Source of the DNA: Kitasatospora herbaricolor | Lineage (GTDB): Bacteria; Actinomycetota; Actinomycetes; Streptomycetales; Streptomycetaceae | Reading direction: 5' to 3' | Assembly: GCF_030813695.1 (NCBI RefSeq) | Contig: NZ_JAUSVA010000002.1 | Location: 8,517,501 to 8,581,500 of the forward strand | Length of the DNA: 64,000 nt | Shown here: positions 1-43,125 of the stretch, piece after piece | Numbering within the stretch: the first letter of the stretch is position 1 | Layout of the letters: each line of letters begins with the position of its first letter | Position numbers and translations under genes: made by a program | Notes under the pieces: generated by a model | What the model was told of the DNA's origin: nothing | Seen by the model: only the letters and a program-made list of their open reading frames with translations | The model's database searches: none

Positions 1-3000
1 TCGCCGCGGTGCTGGGCTACGCCACTCCCGAGGAGCTCGACCTGGACCGGGCCTTCCGGGACCTCGGCTTCGAATCGCTGACCGCCGTCCAGCTGCGTGA
101 CCGGATCGCCGCCGCCACCGGCCTGCGGCTGCCCCCCACGCTGGTGTTCAACCACCCGAGCCCGCGGGCCCTCGCCGCGCATCTGCACGGCCTGCTGCAC
201 GAGGGCGGCACCCGGGCCGAGGCCGACCGGGCCCCCGTCCGCACCCGGGCCGCCGCCGACGAACCGCTCGCGATCATCGGTATGGCGTGCCGTTACCCGG
301 GGGGTGTCGCCTCGCCGGACGACCTGTGGCGGCTGGTGGCGGAGGGGCGTGAGGCGCTGTCGGAGTTCCCGACGGACCGTGGCTGGGACCTCGACGGTCT
401 CTACGACCCGGACCCGGACCACACCGGCACCTCGTACACCCGGCACGGCGGATTCCTGGCCGGCGCCGCCGACTTCGACCCGGGGTTCTTCGGGATCAAC
501 CCGCGCGAGGCCCTCGCGATGGACCCGCAGCAGCGGCTGCTGCTGGAGGCTTCCTGGGAGGCGATGGAGAGCGCCGGCCTGGACCCGGCGGCGCTGCGCG
601 CCACCCCGGTCGGCGTCTTCACCGGGCTGATCTACACCGAGTACGGGGGCCGGGTCCGCGGCTCCGCACCCGACGCGGAGGGCTACCTCGGCACCGGCAG
701 TGCGGGCAGCGTCGCCTCCGGCCGGATCGCCTACACCTACGGGTTCGAGGGCCCGGCGGTGACGGTCGACACCGCCTGCTCGTCCTCGCTGGTCGCCCTG
801 CACCTCGCGGGCCAGGCCCTGCGCTCGGGCGAGTGCACGCTGGCCCTGGTCGGCGGCGCGACGGTGATGTCCACCCCGGACACGTTGATCGAGTTCAGCC
901 GTCAGCGCGGGCTCTCCCCGGACGGCCGCTGCCGGGCGTTCTCCGCCGACGCGGACGGCACGGGATTCGCCGAGGGCGTGGGCCTGCTGCTGGTGGAGCG
1001 GCTGTCGGACGCGCAGGCCAACGGGCACCCCGTGCTCGCGGTGGTGCGCGGTTCGGCGGTGAACCAGGACGGCGCCAGCAACGGTCTGACCGCTCCGCAC
1101 GGTCCTTCGCAGGAGCGGGTGATCCGGGCGGCGCTGGCGTCGGCGGGGCTGACCGCGGCGGACGTGGACGCGGTGGAGGCGCACGGGACGGGCACCCGGC
1201 TCGGTGACCCGATCGAGGCGCAGGCCCTGCTCGCCGCCTACGGCCAGGACCGCCCCGAGGACCGCCCGCTGCGACTGGGTTCGATCAAGTCGAACATCGG
1301 GCACGCGCAGGCGGCGGCCGGGGTGGCCGGTGTGATCAAGGTCGTGCAGGCGCTGCGGCACGAGGTGCTTCCCGCCACCCTGCATGTCGGCGAGCCCACC
1401 GCCCAGGTCGACTGGGAGGCCGGCGCCGTCGAGCTGCTCCGCGAGCCCGTTCCCTGGGTCAGGGGCGACCGGCCGCGCCGGGCCGGTGTCTCCGCCTTCG
1501 GCATGAGCGGTACCAACGCGCACGTCCTGATCGAGGAGGCGCCGGCCGTCCCGGTGCCCGCGGCCCCGGCGCCCGCCGTACCCGTTCCTGCCGTCCCCGC
1601 GGAGGAGTCCGCGAGCCCGCTGCCCGTTCCGGTGGTGGTGTCGGGTCGGTCGGAGGTGGCGTTGGGTGTGGCGGCTGGTCGGTTGGCGGGTTGGTTGGAG
1701 GGTGCGGGTTCGGGTGTGGGGTTGTCGGAGGTTGCTGGGTGGTCGGTGGTGCGTGGGGTGCGGCATGGGTTTGGTGGGGCGGTGGTGTCGGGTGATCGTG
1801 GTGAGGTGATTGCGGGGTTGCGGGCGTTGGCGTCGGGGGTGGCGCATCCGGCGGTGGTGTCGGGGCGTGCTGGTGGGTCGCCGGGTCGGGTGGTGTTGGT
1901 GTTCCCGGGTCAGGGTTCGCAGTGGGTGGGGATGGGTGTGGCGTTGGCGGGTGTGTCGCCGGTGTTCGCGGGGCGTCTTGCGGAGGCGGGGCGGGCGTTG
2001 GCGCCGTTCACGGATTGGTCGTTGGACGAGGCGTTGGTCGATCCGGTGTTGTTGGAGCGGGTTGACGTGGTGCAGCCGGTGTTGTGGGCGGTGATGGTGT
2101 CGTTGGCTGAGTTGTGGCGTTCGGCGGGGTTGCGGGTGGATGCGGTGGTGGGGCATTCGCAGGGGGAGATTGCGGCTGCCGTGGTGTCGGGGGCGTTGAG
2201 TCTGGAGGATGCGGCGGCGGTGGTGGCGTTGCGGTCGCGGGCGATCCGGGCGTTGTCGGGTGGGGGTGGGATGGCGTCGGTGCCGTTGTCGGTGGTCGAG
2301 GTCGAGGGTCTGTTGTCGCGGTGGGGTGGGGGGTTGGAGGTGGCGGCGGTGAACGGGCCGTCGTCGACGGTGGTGTCGGGTTCGGTCGGTGCGGTGGCGG
2401 GGTTGGTGGAGTGGGGTGAGGGTGCGGGGGTGCGGGTTCGTCGGGTTCCGGTGGATTACGCGTCGCATTCGGTGCAGGTGGAGTCGTTGCGTGGTGAGTT
2501 GTTGGAGGTGTTGAAGGGGGTTCGTCCGCGGGCGTCGTCGGTGCCGTTCTATTCGACGGTGTCGGGTGGGGTGGTGGACGGTGGGTCGTTGGACGCGGAG
2601 TACTGGTTCCGGAATCTGCGGGGTCGGGTGCGGTTCGAGGACACGGTGCGGGTGTTGGCGGGGGACGGGTTCACGACGTTCGTGGAGGCGAGTGCGCATC
2701 CGGTGTTGACGGTGGGGGTGCAGGAGACCCTTGCGGGGCGTGAGGACGTGTTGGTGACGGGGACGTTGCGGCGTAGGCGGGAGGATCATCGTCCGTTGCT
2801 GTCGGCGTTGGCGGCGGTGGAGTTGCACGGTCACCGGCTGACGTGGCCGGTGGAGGTGCCGGCGACCCCGCCGGGTCTGCCGACCTATCCCTTCCAGCAC
2901 CGCCACTACTGGCTCGACGCCGCCCCCGACATCAGCGACCCCGGGCACCTCGGCCTGCACACCGCCGGCCACCCGCTGCTCGACGCCACCACCGACCTCA

Positions 3001-6000
3001 CGGACGGCACCACCCTCTACACCAGCCGCATCTCGGCGAGCACCCACCCGTGGCTGCTCGACCACGCCGTCACCGGCACCCCGCTGCTGCCCGCCACCGC
3101 CTTCGTGGAGCTGGCCCTGCACGCCGGCCACCGCGGCGGCGTCCCGCAGCTGGCCGAACTCACCCTGGAGGCGGCCCTGTTGCTCGGGGACGGCGCCGTG
3201 CACGTCCAGACCACCGTGCAACCCGCCGACGACTCCGGCGCCCGGGCGCTGGCCGTCCACTCCCGGCCCGCCACCGCGGGGCCCGACGATCCGTGGACCC
3301 GGCACGCCACCGCCCTGCTCGTCCCGCAGTCCGACGCGCCCGCCGGGCCGCAACCGGCCGGCGCCTGGCCGCCCCCCGGCGCCGTCGCCGTGGACACCAC
3401 GGCGCTGTACGACACGCTCGCCGGGCACGGCTACGACTACGGTCCCGCCTTCCAGGGGGTCCGCGCCGTCTGGCGGCTGGACGGTGTCGTCCACGCGGAC
3501 ATCGCCCTGCCCGAGGACCGGGCGGCGGAGGCCGGCCGGTACGGCATCCATCCGGCCCTGCTCGACGCCGCCCTGCACCCGTTGGCCGCGGGCCTGCTGG
3601 CCGACGGCGCACCGGGCGCCGAGGCCCCGGCCACCGCCCTGCCCTTCGCCTGGACGGGCGTCACCCTGGCCGCGACCGGCGCCACCACGCTCCGGGTGCG
3701 CCTGGAGCGGACGGGCCCCGACTCGGTCGCCCTGACCGCCACCGACCCGGCGGGCGGCCCGGTCGCGGCCGTCGAGCGGATCGCGCTGCGACCGCTGGCC
3801 GCCGGCGCGCTGGCCGCGGCCCGCCCGTCCGGCCGCCACCAGGACGGGCTGCACCACCTGGCCTGGAAGCCCTCCGGCGCGCTCCCCGCGGACCGCGCGG
3901 ACTGGGTCCGGCTGCCCGAGCACGTCCTCGGGTCCGGCGCGGCCCTGCCCGACGCGGCCGCGCTCTTCACCGAGGGTGACGCGAAGGCCCCCGCCGGCGC
4001 CGTCCTGCCGCTCACCGTCCCGCCCGGCACCGATGTCGTCGCGGCCACCGCCGAGCTGCTCGGCCTGGTCCGGAGCTGGCCCGCCCAGGAGCACCTGGCC
4101 GGCACCCGGCTGACCGTGCTGACCCGGCACGCCGTCACCACCGGCCCCGCCGACGGCCGGGTGGAACCCGTGGCCGCGGCTCTCTGGGGCCTGCTGCGGA
4201 GCGCCGCCACCGAGCACCCCGGCCGCTTCGCCCTGCTCGACACCGACGACCGGCCCGGCTCCCCGGACGTGCTGGGCACCGCCCTCGCGCTGGACGAACC
4301 GCAACTCGCCCTGCGCGGGGGTGAGGTCCTCACCCCGGCGGTCGTCCCGCTGCCCGCCGAACCGGACCTCACCCCGCCCGCCGAGGGCGGTGCCTGGCGG
4401 CTCACCCCGACCGGCGACACCCTCGACGCCCTCGCCCTGCTGCCCGCACCGGACGCCGAACGGCCGCTCCTGCCCGGCGAGGTGCGCATCGCCGTCCGCG
4501 CCGCCGGGCTGAACTTCCGCGACGTGCTCATCACCCTCGGTGTCTACCCGGACCAGGCACAGCTCGGCACCGAGGCGGCCGGTCTGGTCACCGCCGTCGG
4601 CGAGGGCGTCAGCACGCTCGCCCCCGGCGACCGGGTCACCGGACTGGTGAACGGCGGCATCGGTCCGGTCGCGGTCACCGACCACCGGCTGCTCGCACGC
4701 ATCCCCGACGGCTGGACCTTCGCCCAGGCCGCCGCCGTGCCCGCGGCCTACCTCACCGCCTACTACGCGCTGGTCGACCTGGCCGCCCTGCGCCCCGGCG
4801 AACGGCTGCTGGTGCACTCGGCGGCCGGCGGGGTCGGCATCGCGGCCGTCCAGCTCGCCACCCACCTCGGCGCCGAGGTGTTCGGCACCGCCGGGCCCGG
4901 CAAGTGGGAGACGCTCGCGGCCCTCGGCATCGACCCGGCCCGCACCGCCTCCTCGCGCACGCTGGACTTCGAGCGGCAGTTCCTGGGGACCACGGCGGGG
5001 GAGGGCGTGGACGTGGTGCTGAACTCCTTCACCGACGACTTCGTCGACGCCTCCCTGCGACTCCTCCCGCGCGGCGGCCGGTTCGTCGAGATGGGCAAGG
5101 CTGACCTGCGGGACCCGGCCACCGTGGCCGGGCAGCACCCCGGGGTGACGTACCGCGCCTTCGACCTGCTGGAGACCGGGCCGCAGCGCATCGGCGAACT
5201 CCTCACCGAACTGCTGGCACTGTTCGGGAGCGGCGCGCTGACCCTGCCCCCGGTCACCGTCTGGCCCCTCGCCCGGGCCGGCGAGGCGATCCGCCACCTC
5301 GGCCAGGCCCGGCACACCGGCAAGGTCGTGGTCACCGTCCCGGCGCCGCTCGACCCGGCGGGCACCGTCCTGGTCACCGGAGGAACCGGCACCCTCGGCG
5401 CGCTGACCGCCCGCCACCTCGTCCGGGAGCACGGCGCCCGTCACCTGCTGCTGGTCGGCCGGCAGGGACCGCAGGCCCCCGGCGCGGCCGAGCTGGCCGC
5501 CGAACTGACCGGACTGGGCGCGCAGGTCACCGTCGCCGCCTGCGACGTGTCCGACCGCGACGCTCTGGCGGAACTGCTCGCCGGCGTCCCCGCCGAGCAC
5601 CCGCTCACCCTGGTGGTGCACGCCGCCGGCGCCCTGGCCGACGGCGTGCTGGAGTCCCTCGACGCGGAGCGGCTGGCGGCCGTCCTCGGCCCCAAGGCCC
5701 GCGCGGCCGGACACCTGGACGAGCTGACCCGGCAGGCGGACCTCGCCGACCTGGTGCTGTTCTCCTCCGTCTCCGGCGTGCTCGGCGGCGGCGGGCAGGC
5801 CAACTACGCCGCCGCCAACGCCTACCTGGACGCCCTCGCCCAGCGCCGCGCCGCCGACGGCCTCCCCGCGACCTCGCTCGCCTGGGGCCTGTGGCAGCAG
5901 GCGAGCGGTCTGACCGGCCACCTGGACGGCACCGACCGGGCGCGGCTGGCCCGCGGCGGCCTGGTGCCGCTGGGCGACCGCGAGGGCCTGGCGCTGCTGG

Positions 6001-6683
6001 ACGCGGCCCGGCGGACGGGGCGGCCGGCCGTCGTGACGGCCCGGTTCGACCTGCGGGCCGACGCCGGTCCGGACGACGTCCCGGCGCTGCTGCGGTCCCT
6101 GGTCCGCGCCCCGGCCCGGCGCAGCGCCGCCGCCGGGCCCGCCGCCGGGGCACCCGGGTCGCTGGCGACGCGCCTGGCCGCCCTGGACGCGGCCGGCCGG
6201 GCCGAGGCCCTGCTGCGGCTGGTGCGCTCGCAGGCCGCGGCCGTCCTCGGACACGGCACCGTCGAGGAGGTCGCCGACGACCGGGCGTTCAAGGAGATCG
6301 GCTTCGACTCGCTGACCGCCGTCGAGCTGCGCAACCGGCTCGGCGCGGCGACCGGACTGCGGCTGCCTCCCACCACGGTGTTCGACCACCCCACCCCGCA
6401 GGCCCTGGCAGGTCATCTGCACCGCACCCTCGCCCCCGAGGACGACGGCCCCGACCCGCTGCTGCGCGAACTCGACCGACTGGAGGCCCTGCTGCCGGCG
6501 CTGGCCGCCGCCGAGGGCACCCGCGGCGCGGTCGGCCGGCGGCTGCGGGAACTGCTCTGGCGCTTCGACGACGGTCCGGCCGAAACCGCCGCCGAGTCGG
6601 CGGCCGACCTGGCGACGGCCACCGACGAGGAACTGTTCGCCGCCCTGGACGACGAGTTCGACCGACCCGGAACGGAGTTCTGA
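1..6683 (+). CDS. Modular type I polyketide synthase, 3' part: ACP, then KS-AT-DH-ER-KR-ACP
   Basis: The 5' end lies outside the window; the reading frame is open from base 3. Numbering residues from the GTG at 9: the tail of an upstream ACP (phosphopantetheine Ser23 in GFESLTAV), then KS (about 85-510; Cys257, His392, His432), AT (Ser717 in GHSQG; YASH at 817-820, the methylmalonyl-CoA signature), DH (His1019 in [10 protein letters not shown], Asp1186), ER (about 1480-1775, NADPH motif [13 protein letters not shown]), KR (GGTGTLG near 1790; Ser1920, Tyr1933; ALADG at the LDD position, so B-type-like) and ACP (Ser2101). All catalytic residues needed for full reduction are visible. The last ~80 residues form an acidic C-terminal docking region, so the chain should pass to the next protein. 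One extension plus full reduction would leave a saturated, methyl-branched unit. The AT block (1630-2875) has a different base composition; see findings. Confidence 0.96.
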
Positions 6684-41514: not shown

Positions 41515-41732
41515 ACGACCGTAGAGTGGCCTGCGCAGCTGGTTCGCCCTGTCCGCCAGGCAGGCGCGTCGCAAGAGGGAACCCGGTGGGAATCCGGGAC
41601 TGCCCCGCAGCGGTGAGCGGGAACGACCGCCGTCATACGCACTGGGCCAAGGCGGCCCGGGAAGCGACGGCCAGTAGGAGTCCGCCCTTCACAGGGGTGG
41701 GCGCGCCCGCGAGTCCGAAGACCTGCCGCTGC
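41515..41732 (+). ncRNA. Cobalamin riboswitch
   Basis: Characteristic conserved blocks are present in order: GGGAACCCGGTGGGAATCC and ACTGCCCCGCAGCGGTGAG (the receptor core, 41577-41617), the B12-box-like GGCCAGTAGGAG (41669-41680), and GAGTCCGAAGACCTGCC (41711-41727). The distal end is followed by a GC hairpin (gcccgcgg 41731-41738 with ccgcgggc 41767-41774) that could serve as the expression platform. These motifs are close to consensus, so I regard the aptamer as functional. The outer stem limits are approximate. The ligand by family is adenosyl- or methylcobalamin; expected effect is repression when the cofactor is abundant. Confidence 0.93.
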
Positions 41733-41860
41733 CCGCGGACCGCCACGGTCCGTGGTCCCACCGGACCCCGCGGGCGGGTCGGCGGCGGGGAGGGACGCGC
41801 ACGCGCACCTCCCGCTCCTGCGCGTACCCGGGGTCTCCTGAACTCGCGAAGGAGAGTTCC

Positions 41861-42004
41861 GTGCAGCAGACCGAGTGGCCGGGTGCCCCCGGGGCCGTGA
41901 ACCGTCGAGGCCCGGACAGCGGGGCGACGGCAGGCCGGTCCGCCGGCTCCGGCGCGGCCGGGATCCGGCCGGGCGCTCCGACGACCGGCGGGGTGGCCCG
42001 GTGA
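41861..42004 (+). CDS. 47-residue ORF behind the cobalamin riboswitch
   Basis: GTG start with a strong Shine-Dalgarno (GAAGGAG, 41849-41855) 5 bases upstream, ending TGA at 42004 and overlapping the thioesterase GTG by 4 bases. The peptide is Gly/Ala/Pro/Arg-rich and hydrophilic (begins VQQTEWPGAPGAVNRRG), with no membrane segment, so it is not a CbtB-type cobalt transporter subunit. It may be a leader peptide, a real small protein, or a remnant left by deletion of the normal riboswitch target. Confidence 0.55.
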   Translation: MQQTEWPGAPGAVNRRGPDSGATAGRSAGSGAAGIRPGAPTTGGVAR

Positions 42005-42486
42005 CGATGCCCCCTGCCGTCTCCCGGACCCCGACGGACTCGGCGGTCACCCTGGCCCACATCATGAGCGAGCACGACACCAACCTCTACGGGACGGTGC
42101 ACGGCGGCGTCGTGATGAAGCTGATCGACGACGCCGCGGCCGCGGCCGCCGGCCGGCACGCGGGTGTCCCCGCGGTCACCGTGTCGGTGGAGGAGATGTC
42201 CTTCCTCGCGCCGGTGCGGGCCGGTGACCTCCTGACGGTCCTGGCCCGTGTCGATCACGCCGGGCGCAGCTCGATGTACGTCTCGGTGGTGGTGACGGCG
42301 GAACGGTGGAACCTCACCGGGCCGGTGACGAGGGTGGCGACGGCGCAACTGGTCTTCGTCGCCGTCGACGCGGACGGGCAGCCGCACCGTGTGCCGGCGC
42401 TGGTCCCGGAGAGCACCGTCGAGCAGCGCCGCGAGCGTCTTGCCCGTGAGCGCCGCGCTCGGCGGGCGAAGGGGCCGGCCGGCTGA
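42001..42486 (+). CDS. Acyl-CoA thioesterase, hotdog fold
   Basis: 161 residues. The hotdog family signature is visible: TLAHIMSEHDTNLYGTVHGG with the helix VVMKLIDDAAAAAAGRHA, as in YciA/Acot7-type acyl-CoA thioesterases; the Asp in the helix is likely catalytic. C-terminal ~20 residues are Arg-rich. The start is GTG 42001 overlapping the 47-residue ORF, or ATG 42007. Position in a cobalamin-riboswitch transcript is unusual for this enzyme and would link acyl-CoA release to B12 status, perhaps through methylmalonyl- or propionyl-CoA; that link is inference. Confidence 0.88.
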   Translation: MTMPPAVSRTPTDSAVTLAHIMSEHDTNLYGTVHGGVVMKLIDDAAAAAAGRHAGVPAVTVSVEEMSFLAPVRAGDLLTVLARVDHAGRSSMYVSVVVTAERWNLTGPVTRVATAQLVFVAVDADGQPHRVPALVPESTVEQRRERLARERRARRAKGPAG

Positions 42487-43125
42487 CCTGGCCGACCGGC
42501 TGACCCTCAGCACCCAGGTCCGTCCGGGCCCCCGACCCCGACCCCGCCCTGACCCGGAGGGGAACCCGGGGCCCGGACGGACCGGCCGTCACCAGGGCGC
42601 GCAGTGCGCCGTGCGGCCGTGCTCACACCGCCCGGTGGGCGTGGAATCCCCGCCCGCTCTTGCGGCCGAGCAGTCCGGCCTCGACCATCCGGGCGAGCAT
42701 CGGCGGGGGAGCGTAGAGCGGCTCCTTGTACTCGTCGTACATCGGGCGCCCCGCCCGCCCGCGCGCCGCACTGGCCCGCTCCGGCGTCCCGCTCCGGCCG
42801 GGCCGCGGGCGTCCTCGGGCCTTTGCGAGGGGCCGGGCCCAGGTGCCAGGACGGCCGGTACCACGTGCAGGTCTGAATTATTAACGGGCCCGGTGCCGTC
42901 GAGGCCTCCGGCGGCCGGGACCAGAACCGGCCCCCTGCGGATCCGGCCCCTTCGGGTGGTGCCGGCCTGCCCGAGGGGACCGGCCGGCACCCCTGCTCGG
43001 CCCGGCGGCGGGGGAGGGTGCCCCCGCCGCCGGGCCGCCACCCGTGACCGCGCGCCGAGCCGCCGGGCGCCTCCGTCCGACCGCCTCCGTCCGCCCGCGC
43101 CCGGCGCGCCGCGACACCCGTCAGT
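42487..43125. other. Gap of 639 bases with a pseudogene remnant
   Basis: Between thioesterase and amidase genes. Apart from the dehydrogenase remnant at 42623-42742, I see only GC-rich DNA with no supported gene and a short AT-rich spot (about 42875-42886). Confidence 0.6.
42623..42742 (-). pseudogene. C-terminal remnant of 3-hydroxyacyl-CoA dehydrogenase
   Basis: The minus strand from ATG 42742 to TGA 42623 reads as the last 39 residues of 3-hydroxybutyryl-CoA dehydrogenase: MYDEYKEPLYAPPPMLARMV followed by EAGLLGRKSGRGFHAH, which is the conserved end of that family. Upstream of the Met the reading frame loses homology at once, so the NAD-binding and most of the catalytic domains are absent. 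A deletion or rearrangement removed about 250 residues. Confidence 0.82.

Follow-up and report, generated by a model that had tools for sequence, protein, structure and literature searches.

In a 64,000-nucleotide stretch of Kitasatospora herbaricolor DNA, referred to here as the window, a cobalamin riboswitch stands before a 47-codon open reading frame (ORF) and an acyl-CoA thioesterase (TE), and there is little doubt, as far as sequence can tell, that this TE is a genuine member of the B12 regulon. The preliminary description of this DNA had named a new regulon member as one of two readings, and comparison of related loci bears this one out. A switch leads the TE, in one of three arrangements, in 12 of the 13 genus orthologs and at 41 of the 43 loci from named genomes; because the scan retrieves genes close to the query, these fractions do not give frequencies among all thioesterases. 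Riboswitches for cobalamin occur widely, and the genes they control are commonly grouped under synthesis, transport and isozymes. That the TE recurs behind them suggests a role, not yet listed, in the way these bacteria respond to B12 shortage.

The aptamer occupies positions 41522-41744 of the forward strand and matches the full RF00174 covariance model (positions 1-189) with a cmscan score of 83.1 bits (E = 5.8e-19) against a gathering score of 31.5, in keeping with the near-consensus motifs noted earlier. It is the best of seven RF00174 matches in the whole genome (9.58 Mb), six of which lie above the cut-off. A chance riboswitch is ruled out by this full-length match far above the cut-off, together with the conserved placement. 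Elsewhere in the window (1215-1289, reverse strand), the Rfam model ASpks, which describes a mycobacterial RNA antisense to a polyketide synthase gene, gives a match of 75 bits; this is probably conserved polyketide synthase coding sequence on the opposite strand.

The end of the aptamer is separated by 96 nt from a conserved platform, AACTCGCGAAGGAGAGTT (41841-41858, forward strand), which can form a short hairpin and carries the ribosome site AAGGAG (41849-41854) 6 nt 5' of the GTG at 41861. In relatives a near-identical platform precedes both TE and metE, and the source genome has one ahead of its own metE as well. Upstream, the stretch CTCCTGCGCG (41815-41824, forward strand) is complementary to the platform segment CGCGAAGGAG at 9 of 10 bases (shuffle p = 0.006) and is a candidate anti-Shine-Dalgarno element; the platform-complementary stretch begins 28 nt upstream of the platform. 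Among relatives, complementarity of at least 9/10 occurs in 13 of 27 long linkers versus 0 of 21 short ones, with median shuffle p values of 0.13 and 0.90, respectively. This assignment is suggestive only. Folding of the leader gave a stability not above that of shuffled sequences. A kissing loop between L5 and the platform was also considered and is without support, L5 being variable while the platform hardly varies. By whatever route, we infer that B12 binding represses TE through the switch.

The ribosome site serves the 47-codon ORF (41861-42004 including the stop, forward strand), whose TGA (42002-42004) overlaps the GTG start of TE at 42001 to give the four-base overlap GTGA (42001-42004). 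The preliminary description had reported this strong ribosome site and the four-base overlap, and both hold with the TE start at GTG 42001. The corresponding ORFs of 7 of 8 relatives, the source genome counted, stop at the TE start; in these seven in-phase loci they measure 141, 144, 78, 90, 36, 45 and 138 nt. The exception, in L014, is out of phase and runs into TE. The probability of at least 7 of 8 being in phase by chance is 0.0026 if the sequences were independent, which related sequences are not. The residues themselves are not kept. In the closest pair, differing codons are nonsynonymous to synonymous in a ratio of 15:2 for the ORF and 3:17 for TE. Over the four pairs compared, this first one included, the ORF gives 15:2, 10:6, 14:2 and 16:7, and the TE of the same pairs 3:17, 5:23, 4:21 and 7:38. 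The ORF matches nothing in Pfam or NCBIfam. A functional 47-residue peptide is thus rejected, there being neither a family nor constraint at the protein level, and with it goes the idea that the ORF is a riboswitch target in its own right. Because its phase is kept and its residues are not, the most plausible reading of the ORF is that of a translational coupler for TE, a role we consider probable. In L017-L019 and in the Streptomyces loci examined, except L087 and L096, TE itself begins at the platform.

The TE (42001-42486, forward strand; alternative start ATG 42007) consists of a single hotdog domain, Pfam 4HBT (74 bits against a gathering score of 20.6; E = 1.3e-20). The solved structures nearest to it by sequence are those of cytosolic acyl-CoA thioester hydrolases (E = 9.3e-35), and the stretch DTN...HGG..MKLID, a candidate site for the catalytic Asn/Asp of ACOT7-like enzymes, aligns with both domains of ACOT7. 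We take this ACOT7/YciA-like family to be broad in acyl-CoA specificity. The nearest named relatives of the TE are in Kitasatospora indigofera and Kitasatospora sp. MBT63, and a search of plasmids gave no match at E ≤ 1e-20.

The targets listed for cobalamin regulons in the consulted part of one survey are B12 synthesis, B12 transport, cobalt transport and isozymes of B12 enzymes (PMC3766115). The TE lies outside these four classes, and the short ORF has no family that could place it in one. As had been remarked from the window alone, the usual B12 targets are absent behind this switch; they are switch-led elsewhere in the genome. Indeed, the genes behind the other six RF00174 matches encode MetE, CobD, NrdA, NicO, CobN and CbtA, the CbtA switch being a sub-threshold match and the others lying above the cut-off. 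The possibility that the window switch was taken from a B12 gene now without one was therefore rejected. The TE is an odd target among the switches of this genome, and its switch no stand-in for a missing one.

Within the genus, TE was found at E ≤ 1e-30 in 13 of 70 genomes, with the riboswitch directly upstream in 11. The twelfth switch-led ortholog, in K. aureofaciens ATCC 10762 (G051), has the order riboswitch-metE-TE (MetE identified by Pfam), and here the metE stop overlaps the TE start just as the stop of the short ORF does in the window. In the thirteenth genome (G014) a C-terminal metE fragment precedes TE, and no riboswitch lies within 9 kb. One of the eleven direct loci (G103, also L055) reads riboswitch-TE-riboswitch-metE, a tandem seen again in L078, L093 and L095, the riboswitches of L093 being recognized by pattern only. 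The named set comprises 43 TE loci from 42 organisms: 33 directly behind the switch, seven behind metE and one, in Metallococcus carri, in the order riboswitch-nrdA-nrdB-TE. Two have no switch above threshold, L062 and L053, the latter a copy of G014. Streptomyces lavendulae CCM 3239 has the order riboswitch-TE. Ten of the 43 repeat genus genomes and take their results from there; the other 33 were scanned by cmscan themselves. In L092 the TE reading frame is truncated, and that of L089 diverges from about codon 75 onwards, damage which implies that TE can be lost. A metE match (E ≤ 1e-60, fragments counted) was obtained in 10 of the 13 TE-bearing genus genomes versus 26 of the 57 others. Most of the loci listed differ in the genes downstream of TE; a few have a neighbour in common (L064 and L077, for example), and no shared co-oriented downstream gene that would name a pathway was seen among them.

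Some loci carry more than this basic unit. In Streptomycetaceae bacterium MP113-05 (L058) three cobalamin riboswitch matches (641-766, 4572-4791 and 5440-5591, forward strand) surround one TE within 5 kb. In G027 (L042) the cobalamin riboswitch of the TE unit is followed, about 1.5 kb further downstream, by an M-box magnesium riboswitch of 133.7 bits (6143-6317, forward strand). Streptomyces sp. ERV7 has TE on two contigs (L061 and L062; 5001-5378) with the same 76% match, and a riboswitch above threshold on only one of them.

A related gene served as control. TE-like matches (E ≤ 1e-25) occur in 304 of 394 Streptomycetaceae, and most of the matches listed are to a second streptomycete TE of about 56-63% identity. 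After removal of seven duplicates from 44 loci of this second TE, the riboswitch core was found in none of the 37 distinct loci within 1.5 kb on each side, and none of the 37 gave an nrd match. Similarly, no RF00174 match was found within about 1.5 kb in 18 loci outside the genus. The linkage is thus kept across species and absent from a related control gene, which leads to the view that TE recurrently joins the B12-shortage regulon. Exceptions that count against this view are G014 (L053) and L062, and also G397, whose TE is 72% identical but has no switch in about 6 kb upstream.

The second reading offered at the outset, a deletion that put the riboswitch before a new gene, survives in part. 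On the TE tree the metE-TE loci do not group together (seven changes in one analysis and six in another, with G014 and L097 counted among them), so that metE was lost or gained repeatedly. Behind the riboswitch of L097/L195 lies a metE with a frame break, and metE-like N-terminal residues are found between switch and TE in L096 and L087. The E-values of these N-terminal remnants are not separable from background, and the call rests on their position directly behind the switch. In L011 and L015 the short ORFs begin GTGAAGCGCACC, close to the GTGAACCGCACC of K. aureofaciens metE; this likeness would fit a deletion scar, although it is too short to prove one. Such fossils favour the loss of metE between switch and TE in some lines, G014, L096 and L087 among them. 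The TE, however, is not a newly captured gene, because it is already downstream in the riboswitch operon where metE is intact, as in K. aureofaciens. It had also been proposed that orthologous loci be compared, and that a usual B12 gene deleted just here in relatives would count against a regulon link. Loss of metE is indeed indicated in some of them, but the link is not thereby accidental.

The preliminary description further took a nearby dehydrogenase remnant as a sign of past rearrangement. The remnant is real: window positions 42606-42741 (reverse strand) match, at 93% over 138 bases, a stretch of K. indigofera in which an intact dehydrogenase-like gene, not far from TE, has its 3' end. 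That species has the same switch-ORF-TE order, with the dehydrogenase-like gene intact about 1.5 kb away, followed by what we take to be glyoxylate-shunt genes; the name dehydrogenase is itself our reading of the protein. By this comparison, the remnant records a separate, recent deletion downstream of TE.

A different set of operons was encountered in the Metallococcus family, where 31 of 119 sampled genomes have TE (E ≤ 1e-20). The order riboswitch-nrdA-nrdB-TE on one strand is found in five genomes (L088, L184, L185, L188 and L189), L191 has riboswitch-TE, and Flexivirga caeni (L086) riboswitch-metE-TE. Pfam identified NrdA and NrdB in L088; in the other four they were recognized by tblastn with the L088 proteins (37-40% identity). 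TE overlaps the preceding gene in L088, L184 and L189 and follows nrdB after 44 nt in L188 and after more than 200 nt in L185; co-transcription is least sure in the last of these, since TE could have its own promoter there. In L184 (4745-6010, forward strand) and L189 (1576-2847, reverse strand) an additional gene lies between nrdB and TE, presumably Nramp metal transporter-like by its motif. Its presence in switch-led nrdAB-TE operons might tie B12 shortage to the metal supply of the class I reductase. In L191 three cobalamin riboswitches surround one TE, before, behind and divergent from it (907-1131 and 2042-2251, reverse strand; 2530-2709, forward strand). Counting against the linkage, no switch lead was found for 24 of the 31 TE-bearing genomes, in four by cmscan some kb upstream and in 19 by pattern within 1.5 kb, with one locus not fetched.

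Four of the five nrdAB-linked TEs belong to another clade. On the TE tree, those of L184, L185, L188 and L189, together with L191, cluster with paralogs that lack a switch (100/99) and away from the switch-linked TEs of streptomycetes; L088 and L086 form long branches of unsure placement. The tree was built from 128 columns, with many forks unresolved and a bootstrap that had not settled. Class-wide searches with the TEs of L086 and L088 led to loci that, among those examined, were nearly all from Streptomycetaceae. Because the five TEs fall with switch-less paralogs, at least two recruitments of TE are indicated, and two is the smallest number that we would defend from the tree.

What might a thioesterase do when B12 is scarce? 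In switch-led operons it is accompanied by MetE and NrdAB, the two classical isozymes that need no B12, and this directs attention to B12 shortage in itself and away from methionine or DNA synthesis. Adenosylcobalamin-dependent acyl-CoA mutases are the problem left unsolved under such shortage. Above the cut-off, prpD, the mark of the methylcitrate alternative, occurs in none of the 70 genus genomes, TE-bearing or not (weak matches in nine). The methylcitrate route was discarded as a discriminator, as prpD is absent from TE-less genomes too and provides no contrast. YciA, a distant relative of the TE, acts as a hydrolase on methylsuccinyl- and mesaconyl-CoA upon expression in Methylorubrum, according to the part of the report consulted (PMC9529712). 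Idle mutases, absence of prpD and the YciA activity together led to the proposal that the TE is a relief valve. With B12 bound, the riboswitch would hold TE low. When B12 is short, the ribosome site would be used and the 47-codon ORF translated, and ribosomes stopping at its TGA would restart on the overlapping TE start. The enzyme would then hydrolyse acyl-CoAs that accumulate while adenosylcobalamin-dependent mutases stand idle; the first candidates are methylmalonyl-CoA and propionyl-CoA, from which it is made, followed by ethylmalonyl- or isobutyryl-CoA. Hydrolysis would free CoA and let the acids leave. In this the TE would work alongside MetE and NrdAB, which take the place of B12 enzymes.

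We consider this explanation as a whole, a B12-switched and ORF-coupled TE acting as an acyl-CoA relief valve, moderately probable. Its most tentative part is that the TE acts on what B12-dependent mutases use as substrates, or on precursors of these, which is possible rather than probable. The generalization that actinobacterial cobalamin regulons hold a further class, a CoA-relief thioesterase recruited at least twice (in metE and nrdAB operons) and kept under its own switch after loss of metE, falls slightly short of an even chance. In such a scheme, the recurrence of TE behind switches predicts a B12-shortage problem that enzyme replacement does not solve, namely CoA trapped in mutase substrates. 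Ordinary streptomycetes would allow a direct test of the prediction, which also matters for the supply of methylmalonyl-CoA in antibiotic producers.

The TE could also be a true regulon member acting on other acyl-CoAs, tuning, for example, fatty-acid or starter-unit pools as the supply of propionyl- and methylmalonyl-CoA shifts, with no relief valve. The broad specificity that we ascribe to the family would allow this, and no neighbour names a substrate; the recurrent link with B12 shortage, however, makes the substrates of B12 enzymes the simpler assumption, and we regard this alternative as rather unlikely. A role in methionine metabolism, such as hydrolysis of homocysteine thiolactone formed when methionine synthesis stalls, would account for the seven named loci in which TE is linked to metE and for the four riboswitch-TE-riboswitch-metE tandems. 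It is hard to reconcile with nrdAB operons that have no metE in between, with TE-bearing genomes that lack a metE match, or with a family that hydrolyses CoA esters, and of the alternatives it seems to us the least credible.

Hitchhiking, in which the switch serves or once served metE or nrdAB and TE is a leftover passenger under functionless B12 control, is improbable as well. The scatter of metE-TE operons on the TE tree and the metE remnants between switch and TE are what it would predict, and TE- and metE-aptamers do intermingle, on a poorly resolved tree. A mere passenger would nevertheless hardly be found directly behind the switch in 33 of 43 named loci despite differing neighbours. Moreover, G034, G056 and G058, three genus genomes that have TE but gave no metE match, keep the switch before TE, and nrdAB operons acquired a TE of another clade. 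The reading of TE as a relief valve is the one retained here.

Full-text literature searches, with subscription papers and supplements outside their scope, listed no title or abstract that describes a thioesterase under a cobalamin riboswitch. In those papers mentioning both that were consulted, they are unrelated in the accessible parts of the texts (PMC4465626, PMC8620254, PMC7205611, PMC2700814, PMC13194489), and the main text of the regulon survey cited above (PMC3766115), as far as it was available, contains neither "thioesterase" nor "Streptomyc".

Among known systems, the metE B12 riboswitch of Streptomyces belongs to the same aptamer family, and the metE switch of the source genome itself, with its near-identical platform, is 87% identical to the TE switch. 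However, the Streptomyces metE switch controls an isozyme of a B12 enzyme, whereas that of the window controls a thioesterase. The S. coelicolor metE switch is reported, in the part of the source consulted, to terminate transcription (PMC4365011), whereas a search of the window leader for a T-run terminator found none. The nearest solved proteins by sequence, ACOT7 chains (PDB 6vfy and 4zv3; E = 9.3e-35 and 1.3e-34), fuse two hotdog domains, both of which match the TE, while the TE has one. YciA (HI0827; PDB 1yli and 3bjk) is also a hotdog acyl-CoA thioesterase with significant similarity to the TE (E = 2.9e-11), but at 55.3 bits against an NCBIfam equivalog cut-off of 162 the TE is no YciA ortholog by that test. 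The switch of nrdAB, the class I ribonucleotide reductase, has TE in the same operon in the five genomes described above. In K. herbaricolor, by comparison, nrdA has a separate switch and the TE of the window stands alone behind its own.
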